A program made the position numbers and the translations under genes. A model generated the notes under the pieces. That model had not been told where the DNA came from. It ran no database searches and saw only the letters and a program-made list of their open reading frames with translations. Shown here piece by piece: positions 20,063 through 25,604 of a stretch of DNA of 64,000 nucleotides. This stretch comes from an uncultured Flavobacteriaceae bacterium (GTDB lineage Bacteria; Bacteroidota; Bacteroidia; Flavobacteriales; Flavobacteriaceae). How positions within the stretch are numbered: position 1 is the stretch's first letter; each line of letters starts with the position of its first letter. Location: contig CANLUS010000001.1 of assembly GCA_947494325.1 (NCBI GenBank), forward strand, positions 62,001 through 126,000. The letters run 5' to 3'.

Positions 20063-21421
20063 CTATTTCTTTTTATTACGTTTATTATAATTTTTGTCAC
20101 CTCTTGTTTTGGGCTTCTTATATTTCTTGGCGATTTCTCTCCGATAAGAACCTCCTTGATTCGTTTTACTATTTTTTTCACTCTTTTCGTGAAACGCCTC
20201 TCCCGAAACATACGTATTCGATCCTCTATTTCGTCGATTCTCTACTAAATCTTCTTTAGGACGCTCATCAGGGGTTAATTTGCTGGAAATTTCAACTTCT
20301 TCAGGAAAAGCTATCATCGGAATTTCGTAATTCATCAATTGCTCTATCCGTTCTTTGGCTTCATTTTCATTCTCGGTAACAAATAACAACGATTCACCTT
20401 CATGTTTTGCCCTACCCGTTCTCCCAATTCGATGCATATAATTTTCAGGGAATTTCGGAGTATCAAAATTGATAACATGGCTAATCTCGCTTAAATCTAG
20501 CCCTCTAGACATCACATCGGTAGCGATCAATATTCTATTATCTCCTTCATCAAATTGTTTAATAGAGCGCATCCTGTAGTTTTGCGTCTTATTAGAATGA
20601 ATTACACAACCCTCTGTTGGATACATTTCTTCTATAACCTCAAACAAACGATCCGCATCTTTTTTATGAGAGGTAAACACAAGTACTTTATGAAAAGTCT
20701 CTTTGTTGTGCAACAGGTGCACCAACAAATTAGCTTTGGTATAAAAGTTCTTAACAGAAAAGCACTGTTGATTTATATTATCAAGTGGCGTACCACTAAC
20801 CGCTATTGATATTTTTACTGGTGCAATAAAATAATCATCAATCAGAGCATCTACATCTTCTGTCATAGTTGCCGAAAACATAATGTTTTGACGCCTTTCG
20901 GGTAAGAGCTCGAATATGTTTTTTAATTGAAATCGAAATCCGAGATCAAGCATTACATCGACTTCATCAATTACCAATTTTTGTATCGATTTTAATTTTA
21001 ACGCTCTACTCAATGCCAAGTCATACAAACGACCCGGTGTAGCGACAACAATATCAGCGCCCTGAGCCATCGTTTGCTTTTGCGCATTGATGTTCACACC
21101 TCCATAAACCCCTACTGTGCGCACGTTCATATAGGCTGATAGCTTAGTTACCTCTTCAACAATTTGTAGCACAAGTTCACGAGTAGGTACTAGAATTAAT
21201 ACTCGAGGGTTGACTTGTTTTGAGAACTTCAGATCACGAAGAATTGGTAAAACAAATGCAAATGTTTTACCGGTACCTGTTTGTGCAATACCTACCATGT
21301 CTTTTCCCGAAAGTATTTTTGAAAAAGATTGTTCTTGAATTGGCGTTGGTTGTGTAAAGCCTAAATCGTCAAGAGCGTAATGCAATTGCTTCGATAAGTT
21401 TAAATCTTCGAACGTACTCAT
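20063..21421 (-). CDS. DEAD-box ATP-dependent RNA helicase (RhlE-like)
   Basis: A 452-residue helicase. The motifs in order are Q motif (FTQPTPIQEQSF), Walker A AQTGTGKT, PTRELV, the motif II variant DEVD (in VIDEVDVMLDLGF, where the family usually has DEAD), SAT, and in the second RecA domain VIHSNKTQ, ATDVMSRGLD and HRIGRTGRA. A basic Lys/Arg/Asn-rich tail of about 60 residues ends the protein and probably binds RNA. It would unwind RNA duplexes in ribosome assembly, mRNA decay or cold adaptation. The next gene follows after 7 bp. Confidence 0.94.
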   Translation of the reverse strand: MSTFEDLNLSKQLHYALDDLGFTQPTPIQEQSFSKILSGKDMVGIAQTGTGKTFAFVLPILRDLKFSKQVNPRVLILVPTRELVLQIVEEVTKLSAYMNVRTVGVYGGVNINAQKQTMAQGADIVVATPGRLYDLALSRALKLKSIQKLVIDEVDVMLDLGFRFQLKNIFELLPERRQNIMFSATMTEDVDALIDDYFIAPVKISIAVSGTPLDNINQQCFSVKNFYTKANLLVHLLHNKETFHKVLVFTSHKKDADRLFEVIEEMYPTEGCVIHSNKTQNYRMRSIKQFDEGDNRILIATDVMSRGLDLSEISHVINFDTPKFPENYMHRIGRTGRAKHEGESLLFVTENENEAKERIEQLMNYEIPMIAFPEEVEISSKLTPDERPKEDLVENRRNRGSNTYVSGEAFHEKSEKNSKTNQGGSYRREIAKKYKKPKTRGDKNYNKRNKKK

Positions 21422-21446: not shown

Positions 21447-21572
21447 CTTAAAATTATACGTAGGCACTAGTTATAGATGGTTCGATTTATTTGCGTAACT
21501 TTAACTGCACCATGCTATTATACTTTTTATTGATAGGTGTTGCATATAGCAGAATCAACTAAGCCCTCAATC

Positions 21573-22322
21573 ATGCTCAAATTCTTCCGCAGAATCAGGC
21601 GAACCCTATTGTCTGAAAATAAATTCTCAAAATATATACTCTATGCAACAGGCGAAATCATTCTCGTAGTAATTGGTATTCTAATAGCACTTCAGATTAA
21701 TAATTGGAATGAAAAAAGAAAAGAGAACATTAAATTAAAAACAGCATTACAATCTGTATATAACGATTTAGTCTCTGACAGTTTACTTATTAATGAAGTA
21801 TTACCTCAAGTATACCGAAGAAATGTTATAACTACTAATTTATTGAAAAGGTCTTACGCAACAGAAGCGAATCTCGATACTTTAGTGAAAATTATGAAAT
21901 CTGAATTTCCAGTAAGATGGTATTCCTCACCACCTTTCAATACAAATACCTTTTCTAATTTAAAATCTACTGGCGCTTTTGATATTTTACCTTCAGAAGT
22001 CAAAAAACGATTATCAAACTATTATACGTCCATGGTATCAAATCAAGATTTAGTTGAAAAGACATTAGGTCAATATAGAATCCATTTAGACGATTTTGTA
22101 AAAAAATACAATATTATAGGTAGATTATACGATGAAAATTATAACAACAGTTATATATATAATCATACATGGACAAATATTGATAGCAAAGATTTCACAC
22201 CAAGAGTAGCCGTAATGTTAGCTGCTTATAATGTTTTATACTTAGTTGCAAAATCTGAACTAGAGACAAATCAGCAAAATATTAAAGAAATTCTACCACT
22301 GTTAAAACCTTATCTAGATTAA
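21573..22322 (+). CDS. DUF6090 family membrane-anchored protein, copy 1
   Basis: A 249-residue protein. The ATG at 21573 is chosen because the next residues (MLKFFRRIRR) match the starts of the three following paralogues; a GTG at 21537 would add 12 unrelated residues. It has a basic amphipathic N-terminus, one transmembrane helix (about 28-46, GEIILVVIGILIALQINNW), a charged stop (NEKRKEN) and a helical domain of about 190 residues that diverges from its neighbours. I recognise the N-terminal module as DUF6090; function is unknown. The orientation implies a long extracytoplasmic or cytoplasmic helical domain, which cannot be settled from sequence. Confidence 0.85.
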   Translation: MLKFFRRIRRTLLSENKFSKYILYATGEIILVVIGILIALQINNWNEKRKENIKLKTALQSVYNDLVSDSLLINEVLPQVYRRNVITTNLLKRSYATEANLDTLVKIMKSEFPVRWYSSPPFNTNTFSNLKSTGAFDILPSEVKKRLSNYYTSMVSNQDLVEKTLGQYRIHLDDFVKKYNIIGRLYDENYNNSYIYNHTWTNIDSKDFTPRVAVMLAAYNVLYLVAKSELETNQQNIKEILPLLKPYLD

Positions 22323-22328
22323 TAACTA

Positions 22329-23075
22329 ATGATTAAATTCTTCCGCAAAATTCGTCAAAACCTACTCATGGAAAATAAAACCTCTGAATACCTCAAATAC
22401 GCCATCGGCGAAATTATTTTAGTGGTTCTTGGGATTTTGATTGCACTTCAAATAAATAATTGGAATGAACATAAAAAAGAACGGGACAAAGAACGAGCTT
22501 TTTTAAAAGAAATAAACTTAGATTTCAAATCCAATAAAGCGCAATTAGACTCAATCATTAGCTATAATGAGATGAGTTTGCACGGTGGTACACGTGTATT
22601 AGACGCTATTGAAAATTTTGACTTAAAAAAACCCGAAATTAATGAGACGAACGCCCATTTTGCAGATAGTATAAAAAAATACTATCCCTTGCTATGGCGA
22701 AATAAATCGTTCAACCCAAAAAACGGTTCTGTCGAAGCCCTTTTAAATTCATCTTCTTTCGATTTAATTAAAAATGACACCTTAAGAAGAAATTTGATAT
22801 CTTGGAAAGATGTGTTGGGTGATTATCTAGAAGAAGAAGCCTTCGCTGTCAAATTTTTATTCGATGAGTATGGCCCATGGAGGAGAGCAAATTTTGATCC
22901 TGATATAGATGATGATCCAGAATATATCACTGCCTTCTTCAGTAAACAACATCGAAATTTCGTGAATAGAAGGTGTGGAGATTTATTTAATAATTTAAAG
23001 ACAGTAGAAGAAGAGGGTGTAATCGCTATGATCGACGCTATTATTAGACTAACTGAAGTGCGAGATAATGATTAA
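22329..23075 (+). CDS. DUF6090 family membrane-anchored protein, copy 2
   Basis: A 248-residue paralogue starting 6 bp after copy 1. It shares the module MIKFFRKIRQ, then a transmembrane helix with GEIILVVLGILIALQINNW, then NEHKKERDKERAFLKEI. The domain beyond residue 60 is mostly helical and acidic (for example DPDIDDDPEY) and differs from the other copies, apart from the recurring idea of a residue pair NPKNGSVEAL / SSSFDLI that parallels SNLKSTGAFDIL in copy 1. Function is unknown. It ends in an 8-bp overlap with copy 3, so translation of the two is probably coupled. Confidence 0.87.
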   Translation: MIKFFRKIRQNLLMENKTSEYLKYAIGEIILVVLGILIALQINNWNEHKKERDKERAFLKEINLDFKSNKAQLDSIISYNEMSLHGGTRVLDAIENFDLKKPEINETNAHFADSIKKYYPLLWRNKSFNPKNGSVEALLNSSSFDLIKNDTLRRNLISWKDVLGDYLEEEAFAVKFLFDEYGPWRRANFDPDIDDDPEYITAFFSKQHRNFVNRRCGDLFNNLKTVEEEGVIAMIDAIIRLTEVRDND

Positions 23076-23853
23076 ATTCTTTAGTAAAATACGCTATAAC
23101 CTTATGAGTAAAAACAAAACCACCAAATACTTTAAATATGCCATTGGCGAAATTGTTTTGGTGGTTCTTGGTATTCTTATTGCTTTACAGATTAACAATT
23201 GGAATGAAGACAGAAAAGAACGAGCACAAGAACAAGAATTACTCTTACAATTACAATCAGAATTCCAAAGTAATCTAGAGCAACTTGACCAAAAAACTGC
23301 TATGCGAGATCAAATGACTGATGCTGCATTAACGTTACTTCACAATATTGACCATCCGGAAACGAGAGATGCAGACTCTATTACAAAACACATAGGACTC
23401 ACAGCTGTAAATCCAACGTTCGACCCCATTATTAACGATATTAATAGCTCTGGAAGAATACAACTATTACAAAATATAGATCTAAAAGAACGACTTGCTA
23501 GATGGACAAGTGAAGTTATTCAGGTAACCGAAGAAGAGCAAGCTTGGGTATTCATTAGAGGAAATGAATATCTCCCGATGCTATCGCAAAAAGGCTTTAT
23601 GCGAAATGTTTTAAATCGTTATTGGAAGGATAATGTTCTTGCAGCTTTTCATTTAGATGAAGGCACTAAGACTGAAATTGATTTAGGAAATTCTAAAAAG
23701 GAAAATGTTATCTCATCTATTTTAGATGATCCTCTATTCGAGAGTTCTATTGCACAATGCGCTACTTATGCAAAACTCACAAATAGTCAAGCTGTGAGTT
23801 TACGTCACCGAATAGTCGAAATTTTAGAAATCATAAAACAAGAACTAAAGTAA
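23068..23853 (+). CDS. DUF6090 family membrane-anchored protein, copy 3
   Basis: A 261-residue paralogue whose ATG lies inside the end of copy 2 (8-bp overlap). The conserved N-terminal module is MIKFFSKIRY, a transmembrane helix with GEIVLVVLGILIALQINNW and the charged NEDRKERAQEQELLLQL. The following domain has INDINSSGRIQLLQNIDLKERL, again a short Ser-Gly block followed by a hydrophobic helix at the place seen in copies 1 and 2, so the ectodomains may share a fold despite low identity. Function is unknown. Its stop overlaps the start of copy 4 by one base (TAATG). Confidence 0.87.
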   Translation: MIKFFSKIRYNLMSKNKTTKYFKYAIGEIVLVVLGILIALQINNWNEDRKERAQEQELLLQLQSEFQSNLEQLDQKTAMRDQMTDAALTLLHNIDHPETRDADSITKHIGLTAVNPTFDPIINDINSSGRIQLLQNIDLKERLARWTSEVIQVTEEEQAWVFIRGNEYLPMLSQKGFMRNVLNRYWKDNVLAAFHLDEGTKTEIDLGNSKKENVISSILDDPLFESSIAQCATYAKLTNSQAVSLRHRIVEILEIIKQELK

Positions 23854-24899
23854 TGATTAAATTCTTTCGAAAAATTCGTCGAAACTTAGTTATGGAAAGC
23901 AACACAGGCAAGTACTTCAAATACGCCATAGGCGAAATCATCCTTGTTGTTATTGGTATTCTCATTGCATTACAAATTAATAATTGGCACGAAAACCGAC
24001 AAAAAGCGAATGAAATCGAAAGCTTAATGCAGGTTTTTGAAAACGAATTAAACAAAAATATTGAAGCCTGTAATCTATTCATAGAATATGGATTTGAGAC
24101 TGATTCTATCTCTTCATTATACAAGAATGAAAAAATAACAAAACAGATGCTGGCCGACGATCCATATTTAGAATGGGGATTTGGTACCAATACGCAGCAA
24201 TTCGCAGATGATCGTTTAAGTGAATTAATTTCAGTAGAAAAGCGTTTGCCAAATAAATACAAAAAGTTAATTACTGACTTAAAAGAATTAAAAAGACGTA
24301 TTGAATCTCAACGGAGTTGGGAAAAAAAGGCAGTAGACTTAAGTCTCTCTCGATTTAAAGAAATGACAGACACTTTACCGTGGATGTTCAAATACGACTC
24401 AATTTCAAGAGATAAAGCACGAGACTACTACTTAACAGATGAGATTTACAAAAACAAAGTACTGCATTATAACACATTACAACTTAGCGAGAATGTGTGG
24501 GATGCCACGCTTATTAGGTCCAGTTCTGTCGTTCTATTATGGCAACTGAAAAAGATTAGAACAAAAAATAATGCACTCGATTTGAAATCTTTCTTAATTA
24601 GTAAAGGCTTGGAACCTTTTGAAGAATTGGATTGCAGCGAAAGACCATTTAAAAATCGAGAATCTATAAGTTTCGGAAGAAACTTTATTCTTTATAACAA
24701 CTCTGATAAAGAAGTTTTATTTAACGTTATTGAAACATCCGGAGAGCTGATTTCAACTGGGCGCTTAAAATCAAAGTCAATACTTTTTAATGAATCGGTA
24801 AATCTCTCAACTAACCGCTTAATAGAGCGAGTAGATGACTCAGGTTCTTGTGTAAAAGTATATCGCTATACCAAAGAAGATTTCCTTATTTTCGATTAA
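23853..24899 (+). CDS. DUF6090 family membrane-anchored protein, copy 4 (longest)
   Basis: A 348-residue paralogue, about 90 residues longer than its neighbours. The N-terminal module is conserved (MIKFFRKIRR, then a transmembrane helix with GEIILVVIGILIALQINNW, then HENRQKANEIESL). The helical domain to about residue 245 matches the general pattern (TQQFADDRLSELISVEKRLPNKYKKL). An extra C-terminal segment (about 260-348) is richer in beta-type residues and has two Cys (LDCSERP and GSCVKV). It is the last gene of the coupled cluster; the convergent msrA gene begins 6 bp beyond its stop. Function is unknown. Confidence 0.87.
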   Translation: MIKFFRKIRRNLVMESNTGKYFKYAIGEIILVVIGILIALQINNWHENRQKANEIESLMQVFENELNKNIEACNLFIEYGFETDSISSLYKNEKITKQMLADDPYLEWGFGTNTQQFADDRLSELISVEKRLPNKYKKLITDLKELKRRIESQRSWEKKAVDLSLSRFKEMTDTLPWMFKYDSISRDKARDYYLTDEIYKNKVLHYNTLQLSENVWDATLIRSSSVVLLWQLKKIRTKNNALDLKSFLISKGLEPFEELDCSERPFKNRESISFGRNFILYNNSDKEVLFNVIETSGELISTGRLKSKSILFNESVNLSTNRLIERVDDSGSCVKVYRYTKEDFLIFD

Positions 24900-24905
24900 A
24901 TAATT

Positions 24906-25604
24906 CTAATGTTTCTTCGAAATCAATTCTGGAAATTTTTTCTGAAAACGTTTCAATCTAGGTATGGAAACACCCTGAATATAACGATTATTTGGATGTA
25001 AACGCTCATAGTTTTGGTGGTAATCTTCGGCAATCCAGAACTTTTGAAAAGGATACACCTCGGCCGCAATTTTAGCTTTTAATTCATCAACCAATGCTTT
25101 TTTCTTTTTCAAAATAATCTCTTTCTGTTCGGCATTTTGAAAAAATAGAATTGATCGATATTGAGAGCCTCTATCTGGTCCTTGCCCATTTACTTGCGTT
25201 GGATTTTGAGAGCCAAAATATACATCGACCAATGTTGCAAATGAAACTACTTTTGGATCATAAATTACTTCTACAGCCTCAGCATGCCCAGTTCGCCCAG
25301 TGTTACTACCTTCATACGTTGGATTTTCAGTAAATCCTCCAGAATAACCATTAATAACTTCAGTCACACCATTTACGCTCTCATAAATAGCTTCAACACA
25401 CCAAAAACAACCACTTGCAAAATAGGCTTTCGCCAGGCCCTTTTCAAGTGGAACTGTCACTGGGTCTAAAGTCAATAGCTCCAATTGCTTTTTCTCGATA
25501 GTACTCATTTTCTTTTGAGCAGATTTCTGTTCGCTCTGCGCTTTACCTTGGCAACTGATTGTTATAAAAACTACAGCTAGTAAAAGTGATTTGATGGTAT
25601 TCAT
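24906..25604 (-). CDS. msrA: Peptide-methionine (S)-S-oxide reductase, exported lipoprotein form
   Basis: A 232-residue MsrA. It repairs oxidised methionine (the S-sulfoxide) in proteins. The catalytic motif ASGCFWCVEAIY is at about 63-74, with the nucleophile being the Cys of GCFW. Other blocks are GYSGGFTENPTYE, TGHAEAVEVIYDP and AEDYHQNYE. A lipoprotein-like signal (VVFITISCQGKAQ) precedes the domain, so this copy works in the envelope. It is a single gene on the minus strand with its own -7 element. Confidence 0.96.
   Translation of the reverse strand: MNTIKSLLLAVVFITISCQGKAQSEQKSAQKKMSTIEKKQLELLTLDPVTVPLEKGLAKAYFASGCFWCVEAIYESVNGVTEVINGYSGGFTENPTYEGSNTGRTGHAEAVEVIYDPKVVSFATLVDVYFGSQNPTQVNGQGPDRGSQYRSILFFQNAEQKEIILKKKKALVDELKAKIAAEVYPFQKFWIAEDYHQNYERLHPNNRYIQGVSIPRLKRFQKKFPELISKKH

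Follow-up and report, generated by a model that had tools for sequence, protein, structure and literature searches.

A 64,000-nucleotide stretch of DNA from an uncultured Flavobacteriaceae bacterium (GCA_947494325.1, contig CANLUS010000001.1, positions 62,001 to 126,000), hereafter the window, contains at positions 21573 to 24899 a quartet of adjacent genes related to DUF6090 (PF19578), a family whose name states that its function is unknown. We propose, with a probability of roughly 0.55, that the quartet is a chromosomal array of modular single-pass inner-membrane proteins, the ectodomains of which are exchanged behind a constant, selected anchor. The genes are closely spaced and share their N-terminal anchor, like anchors at the same locus in sister species are followed by different ectodomains, the anchors of the quartet are synonymously old, and 20 relatives in the same genome reside in integron-like cassette arrays.

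Four genes with a common anchor and diverged ectodomains

The four genes, termed W1 to W4, and their anchors are located as follows.

21573..22322, plus strand: DUF6090 gene 1 (W1), 249 aa; open reading frame (ORF) and Pfam match; gene-1-type anchor MLKFFRRIRRTLLSENKFS...GEIILVVIGILIALQINNW, then ectodomain
21573..21713, plus strand: anchor of gene 1, codons 1-47; identity to the sister genome G152 collapses at about 21724, the proposed recombination hinge
22329..23075, plus strand: DUF6090 gene 2 (W2), 248 aa; ORF, Pfam match and AlphaFold2 (AF2) model
22329..22469, plus strand: anchor of gene 2, from the anchor alignment
23068..23853, plus strand: DUF6090 gene 3 (W3), 261 aa; ORF and Pfam match; 8-nt overlap with gene 2
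23068..23208, plus strand: anchor of gene 3, from the anchor alignment
23853..24899, plus strand: DUF6090 gene 4 (W4), long form, 348 aa; 1-nt overlap with gene 3; anchor, helical part and C-terminal beta domain (about residues 255-348) in the AF2 model
23853..23993, plus strand: anchor of gene 4, from the anchor alignment

A preliminary description of this DNA, made from the sequence alone, had placed four genes in a row at spacings of +6, -8 and -1 bp, and the coordinates of the ORFs, all on the plus strand, agree with it exactly. For gene 1, the ORF caller chose a GTG at 21537, and the anchor begins at the ATG at 21573. Genes 1 to 3 passed the Pfam gathering cut-off of 23.5 bits for PF19578 (35.3, 39.7 and 36.6 bits), whereas gene 4, which differs by its extra beta domain, narrowly missed it with 22.6 bits. 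All four proteins matched the N-terminal part of the profile, and its later positions were barely matched by genes 2 to 4. In a search with an anchor hidden Markov model (HMM) the quartet scored E 1.1e-32 to 8.6e-31, values that are circular because the model was built from 20 sequences of the same genome including the quartet; the anchor alignment itself makes the likeness plain. Against NCBIfam and PADLOC, the sole match of the quartet was RmuC to gene 4 (E 0.0035), with no PADLOC match at E up to 1.

The anchor, residues 1-47, is made up of a basic start, a Y..Y pair and the core GEI(I/V)LVV(I/L)GILIALQINNW. The N-termini had been called nearly identical, which holds for the transmembrane core and goes too far for residues 10-24, where the four are less alike; the overall pairwise protein identity is 70-81%. 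Behind residue 47 the ectodomains measure 201-301 residues, slightly above the range of 190-290 given at first. That they have diverged was correct, as they are 18-31% identical by pairwise global alignment, but genes 1 to 3 are not unrelated there. Iterated HMM searches linked the ectodomains of 97 of the 104 proteins that we collected, those of genes 1 to 3 included, into one diverged helical family.

The AF2 model of gene 2 (77-row alignment, the rows taken out of the proteins reached by the HMM; pLDDT 90.6, pTM 0.81) is all helical, with a short helix at residues 2-14 followed by one helix from 18 to 95 that is predicted to run through the membrane into a bundle. The model of gene 4 (11-row alignment, pLDDT 80.4) adds the C-terminal beta domain, and long-form relatives of gene 4 in other genera aligned over at least 200 residues at 30-39% identity. 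Long DUF6090 proteins at two loci elsewhere (L061, L070) end in TPR repeats (E 5.5e-8) and in a weak SusF/SusE match (E 0.045).

Selection on the anchor

Synonymous and non-synonymous change was counted per domain, as the preliminary description had proposed. Pairwise among the quartet anchors, dN was 0.13-0.25 and dS was 1.4-3.4 or saturated. Because the anchors are synonymously this old, their likeness is kept by protein-level selection and not by recent copying. The anchor carried 3.60 bits of information per column and the parts behind it 1.36 and 1.24, a contrast that is inflated and partly built in, since the relatives were fetched via the anchor and the ectodomain columns are poorly aligned. 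Anchor conservation was periodic at 100 degrees, with a moment reached by 5 of 2000 shuffles, and Y21, Y24, G27, E28, G35 and A39 were invariant across 77 sequences, all gathered via the anchor. The spacing G35xxxA39 is that of helix-packing motifs.

We dropped a prepilin-like signal as a candidate for this region, because in the anchor the glutamate comes right after the glycine, unlike in type IV pilins. In one contig of another genome (G069:C15, L101) several anchors carry short insertions (SPASPAG, AGQAG, LPASKGG) near residues 14-20, which look like the in-frame translation of a small repeat element.

Probable exchange of ectodomains at one locus in sister species

Two genes that flank the quartet mark the same locus in two sister species, G151 and G152.

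20063..21421, minus strand: RhlE-like DEAD-box helicase, flank
24906..25604, minus strand: gene whose product we take to be MsrA-like, opposite flank

Both flanks are kept in both sister species (93% and 91% for the helicase, 86% and 87% for the MsrA-like gene), and between them lie four anchor genes in the window, five plus one other gene in G152 and a single one in G151. Compared in 60-nt blocks with the first G152 gene (R1), W1 was 90-97% identical over the upstream DNA and the anchor and 39-60% identical from just past codon 50 to its end. W4 and its G152 counterpart R5 likewise share an anchor (92.2% of nucleotides, dS 0.18) and have ectodomains with 24.2% amino acid identity. W2 and R3 are the mirror image: the ectodomain is 95.5% identical (dN 0.019, dS 0.24) and the anchor has a dS of 0.97. 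W3 and R4 are conserved over their whole length, with ectodomains 93.9% identical (dN 0.034, dS 0.22). The single G151 gene combines a gene-1-type anchor (93.6% amino acid identity to W1, 78.7% to W2) with a gene-2-type ectodomain (83.6% to W2, 20.1% to W1).

These patterns suggest that recombination at the anchor swaps ectodomains. The two orthologous ectodomain pairs, W2/R3 and W3/R4, are under purifying selection, and with a dN/dS of about 0.08 and 0.15 in them, the locus owes its diversity more to the replacement of entire modules than to fast change at single positions. A diversifying set, in which a constant anchor is joined to partner domains that vary and can be exchanged, is borne out by four, five and one genes in three sister species with swapped ectodomains, and single-copy orthologues of fixed sequence were not seen. 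The preliminary description had also offered a hetero-oligomeric complex, and in its obligate form this finds no support, as neither the number nor the identity of the members is kept between sister species.

Across the family we asked how often anchors at least 90% alike in DNA are joined to dissimilar ectodomains. Such pairs numbered 14 among the 1214 formed within groups; they came from 10 of the 52 groups, a few of which share loci, and their anchor dS was 0.16-0.61. Exchanges behind the anchor appear by this comparison to recur, yet most paralogue pairs are old.

DUF6090 genes across the Flavobacteriaceae

PF19578 matches were found in 91 of 149 Flavobacteriaceae genomes, counts that rest on up to 21 scored candidates. 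Thirteen genomes of the genus, 68-100% complete, had 29, 0, 0, 8, 16, 1, 8, 8, 0, 11, 0, 4 and 2 anchor matches, and one of those with no match is 99% complete. Eight genomes, hand-picked and several of them for high counts, held 4, 28, 18, 41, 47, 10, 5 and 11 copies; in G069, 26 consecutive anchor genes lie inside 21 kb, with 20 of the 25 gaps at most 20 bp.

The loci that we named are the best 80 of 558 confirmed stretches. They hold 228 anchor genes with 131 adjacent same-strand pairs, and the close spacing seen in the quartet is general: 94 of these gaps are at most 20 bp, -8 being the commonest (39) and -4 the next (16). Single genes make up 53 of the 97 runs, some of them cut by locus ends. 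The records belong mainly to Flavobacteriaceae (Winogradskyella, Polaribacter, Maribacter, Lacinutrix and others); outside the family are Algoriphagus, Saprospiraceae, Portibacter and one metagenome-assembled genome titled Gammaproteobacteria.

Some of these runs occupy fixed places. At six loci (L144, L148, L152, L165, L173, L198), 3, 1, 2, 7, 3 and 4 copies stand upstream of one aldehyde dehydrogenase, the six enzymes being 77-89% identical to the L144 copy by BLAST, and at four of the six the run directly follows a RidA-like gene (84-85%). These loci are a conserved niche with variable DUF6090 content; we presume that the RidA-like gene and the dehydrogenase act in kynurenine degradation. 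In G034, a genome of another genus, five copies lie between Nqr genes (the NqrF-like one 92% identical to that of the window) and two genes related by BLAST at 47% and 49% to those just beyond the quartet. With these matching flanks, the same neighbourhood holds an array in the other genus, and in a congener, G168, two copies adjoin the same transporter-like flanking gene. We make no claim for amino-acid or nitrogen catabolism as a theme among neighbours, for which no control set was scanned.

Integron-like cassette arrays in the same genome

The anchor profile found 29 places in the genome of the window (G000) at E <=1e-5, of which one is a fragment interrupted by a stop. Twenty copies lie in integron-like arrays on five contigs, C3 (at 477-515 kb), C6, C10, C11 and C20, which we assume to be one array.

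C6:1-3961, C3:466-519 kb, C10, C11 and C20 (L027-L034, L036): integron-like arrays with 104 attC-like site matches
L034:2786-3961 (C6): tyrosine recombinase, 391 aa
C3:478930, C11:9229 and C10:29951, for example: 345-bp element starting GATGGAACACATTCGCC, at 11 places in L028, L029 and L031-L033

Repeats of about 125 bp separate the genes on the array contigs. Eighteen of the 20 cassette-borne copies start 31-55 nt behind a GTTNNNN core, and the other two follow another DUF6090 gene. The start of a cassette is complementary to its own end over at least 7 nt in 61 of 82 site pairs (shuffled mean 7.7, maximum 14). We aligned 35 of the 104 sites, setting aside those of the 345-bp-element type and any whose R'' motif was not clear, and obtained 20 pairs that fold, 10 of them with two-sided changes, in R''/R' and L''/L' arms; in the L''/L' arm, for example, GC changes to UA in 16 of the 35 sequences. 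As far as sequence can tell, the sites have the anatomy of integron attC. The quartet itself is not a cassette: the window has 0 matches to the core motif GTTGTGCTTCATTA, and BLAST gave no match in it to four attC types.

From the arrays we chose 133 ORFs of at least 60 aa by a selection that favoured one strand; 130 are on that strand, 130 are below 41% GC and 20 are DUF6090 genes. A Pfam scan covered 101 of the 113 non-DUF6090 cassette ORFs, those of at least 100 aa, with 90 of them rescanned as two halves, and found 55 families in all, mostly with one member each, among them one CdiI_3 immunity protein, one RHS-repeat protein and one HEPN protein.

The recombinase on C6 is oriented the same way as the cassettes, and the first and second cassettes after it are DUF6090 genes. 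It has no IntI insert (26 residues against 69 in IntI4, 2a3v) and scores below the NCBIfam cut-offs for both integron integrase (TIGR02249, 205.6 against 265) and XerA (213.3 against 220). Relatives at E 1e-60 occur in 65 of the 149 Flavobacteriaceae genomes, its own included. Of 13 regions beside such relatives, hand-chosen from 67 matches in mostly complete genomes, eight had at least three repeated attC-like elements, one had one and four had none.

The 345-bp element has nested inverted repeats and a near-identical end and lies at cassette junctions; in 6 of the 11 places a DUF6090 cassette follows it directly. It may be a miniature element that resembles a cassette or targets attC. Partial attC-like fragments close to a solitary DUF6090 gene (G000:C1:492415-496373, L037) are perhaps a decayed cassette cluster.

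Discussion

We envisage proteins with a short basic amphipathic start in the cytoplasm and one transmembrane helix continuing into a helical bundle, which by the positive-inside rule would be periplasmic. Selection at the protein level would keep the anchor, most likely as a docking site for a common membrane partner or for other anchors, and its conserved coding stretch would double as a recombination hinge, behind which whole ectodomains, as specificity modules, may be exchanged, gained and lost. In the genome of the window, related modules sit in integron-like cassettes, and other Flavobacteriaceae have them as tandem runs whose places are fixed. Most likely, the modules form a periplasmic repertoire for binding or neutralising, presumably with one target per ectodomain.

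Several observations weigh against this proposal. The clear boundary comes from one locus in one close pair (G000 and G152), to which the G151 chimera adds a second event at that locus, and the comparison of three species does not settle the ancestral arrangement or the direction and order of events. At a second locus, G034 against G168, five and two copies are too diverged for boundaries, and 1200 of the 1214 paralogue pairs fail the criterion of recent anchor exchange. The contrast in conservation is, as noted, partly built in. The ectodomain of gene 4 was not joined to the main family, and in the 104-protein set it joined only R5. Foldseek gave no match at E <=0.001 for gene 2 against the PDB and viral models or for gene 4 against the PDB; the best rows for gene 4 were all weak (pilin FctB, E 0.0074; VHL-type sandwiches, best E 0.017). 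No common partner of the anchor was found, and Pfam and PADLOC scans of DUF6090 neighbours showed no theme pointing to a target.

What the modules do may be seen in two ways, which we hold to be about equally likely. Each ectodomain might neutralise one periplasmic or inner-membrane toxin, like the orphan immunity genes of recombinase-associated acquired interbacterial defence (rAID) arrays, or block one phage. Such an immunity or exclusion repertoire is possible, if doubtful; it would fit the turnover of whole modules, the copy number of 0-29 per genome in the genus, the CdiI_3, RHS-repeat and HEPN proteins among the other cassettes, and the presence of 20 relatives in arrays linked to a recombinase, whose short, AT-rich genes share an orientation and are separated by conserved motifs, as the excerpted text of PMC12247911 describes rAID. 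The defence models speak against it, as PADLOC had nothing for the quartet at E up to 1, matched only 1 of 101 other cassettes and, among 104 neighbours, found PD-T4-2_B in four and five further models in one each. Moreover, the matches listed for neighbours (25 of 114 Pfam families) include no toxin family, gene 2 as the sole query had no homologue in 50,697 phage and 72,556 plasmid records, and the two orthologous ectodomain pairs show no trace of point changes driven by positive selection. Alternatively, and with similar doubt, the bundles could bind different small molecules or envelope proteins, the anchor signalling to one shared transducer. In the model, the long helix (residues 18-95) appears to continue from the membrane into the bundle, and the structural neighbours of gene 2 include chemoreceptor ligand domains (apo-Tar 4z9j, Z 8.4 over 141 residues, rmsd 3.6; Tsr 2d4u, 8.1). 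The runs of 3, 1, 2, 7, 3 and 4 copies before an aldehyde dehydrogenase, 4 of the 6 after a RidA-like gene, and the TPR and weak SusF/SusE-like (E 0.045) extensions of two long forms would also suit ligand binding. However, bundles designed de novo reach even higher values (Z up to 12.2), helical bundles may score up to a Z of about 13 through common arrangement alone, and VIA-align of gene 2 returned bundles of many kinds, all within the unrelated-bundle range. About 20 cytoplasmic residues leave no room for an output domain, and no transducer was found. The preliminary description had pointed to receptor, adhesin, toxin-immunity and signalling arrays, and the results from neighbours, Pfam, PADLOC and folds do not discriminate among these.

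Two simpler accounts need no repertoire. Ordinary paralogue expansion, with anchors conserved for membrane insertion and ectodomains drifting with no special exchange, seems unlikely to us. Many Bacteroidota families are expanded, and the anchors of most paralogue pairs are below 90% identical in DNA and therefore old. Drift would not readily give the sharp anchor boundary, at which DNA identity drops from 90-97% to background, the reversed pattern of gene 2 or the G151 chimera, and plain insertion does not obviously need Y21, Y24, G27, E28, G35 and A39 to be invariant in the 77 anchor-collected sequences. A fixed hetero-oligomeric membrane complex of the four products would agree with the overlapping genes and with the periodic conservation and invariant G35xxxA39 of the transmembrane helix; it is very improbable given five or one members at the same locus in sister species, two of four ectodomains differing in G152, and the 53 of 97 runs that are single genes in the named loci, even if some are cut by locus ends.

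The arrays lead to a broader and more tentative suggestion. The Flavobacteriaceae may possess an as yet undescribed class of integron with a Xer/XerA-like recombinase that lacks the IntI insert; DUF6090 would be its largest recognised cargo, the anchor serving as dock and hinge, and the class would feed ectodomains into arrays like the quartet, with the rAID of gut Bacteroidales perhaps a branch of it. Some results count against an integron: 21 of the 82 cassettes lack the 7-nt self-complementarity, possibly because the site list missed intermediate sites; the four empty regions include that of the closest recombinase relative, G125 (68%), and one region 5.3 kb long; and among genomes of the same genus the recombinase is found at 79% only in G151, whereas G152, with its five-gene locus, has nothing above 38%.

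Known systems resemble these elements in part. The arrays, though not the quartet, are like the rAID of Bacteroidales in their upstream tyrosine recombinase, co-oriented short genes, low GC (130 of 133 below 41%) and intergenic motifs; this likeness is one of description (from the excerpt of PMC12247911). The quartet differs from rAID in having no adjacent recombinase or intergenic motif, and the cassettes are not mainly of known immunity families (one CdiI_3 in 101). With attC integrons of the Vibrio superintegron type, the arrays and their 20 DUF6090 relatives share paired R''/R' and L''/L' motifs and the self-complementarity of 61 of 82 cassettes, but the recombinase has no IntI insert, falls below the integrase cut-off and faces the same way as the cassettes, and the quartet is outside any array. 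The ligand domains of the chemoreceptors Tar and Tsr also have a transmembrane helix running on into a helical bundle; the quartet lacks their cytoplasmic signalling part, and the Z of 8.4 to Tar is within the unrelated-bundle range.

In the literature searched, no paper mentioned 'DUF6090' or any of six motif strings, and none of the papers listed on integrons in Flavobacteriia, judged by titles and the openings of abstracts, dealt with such chromosomal arrays. Excerpts of earlier work name Bacteroidota or Bacteroidetes/Chlorobi among integron-bearing groups (PMC8618304, PMC2426708), give Salinibacter ruber M1 as the complete integron of IntegronFinder 2.0 in Bacteroidetes proper (PMC9024848), report attC sites in a Polaribacter phage (PMC9892861), and describe the IntI insert as essential for integron function and not fully conserved in an integron-like subgroup (PMC8138268). 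The main texts of PMC8352920 and PMC10963911 contain neither 'Bacteroid' nor 'Flavobact'. Software that depends on integrases of the IntI type could miss arrays like those described here.

DUF6090 is thus absent from the literature searched, yet it occurs in 91 of 149 Flavobacteriaceae genomes, with 0-29 copies in one genus. Should the anchor be a common dock, a single partner would serve dozens of ectodomains that can replace one another, and the function could then be tested by exchanging them in a laboratory Flavobacterium.

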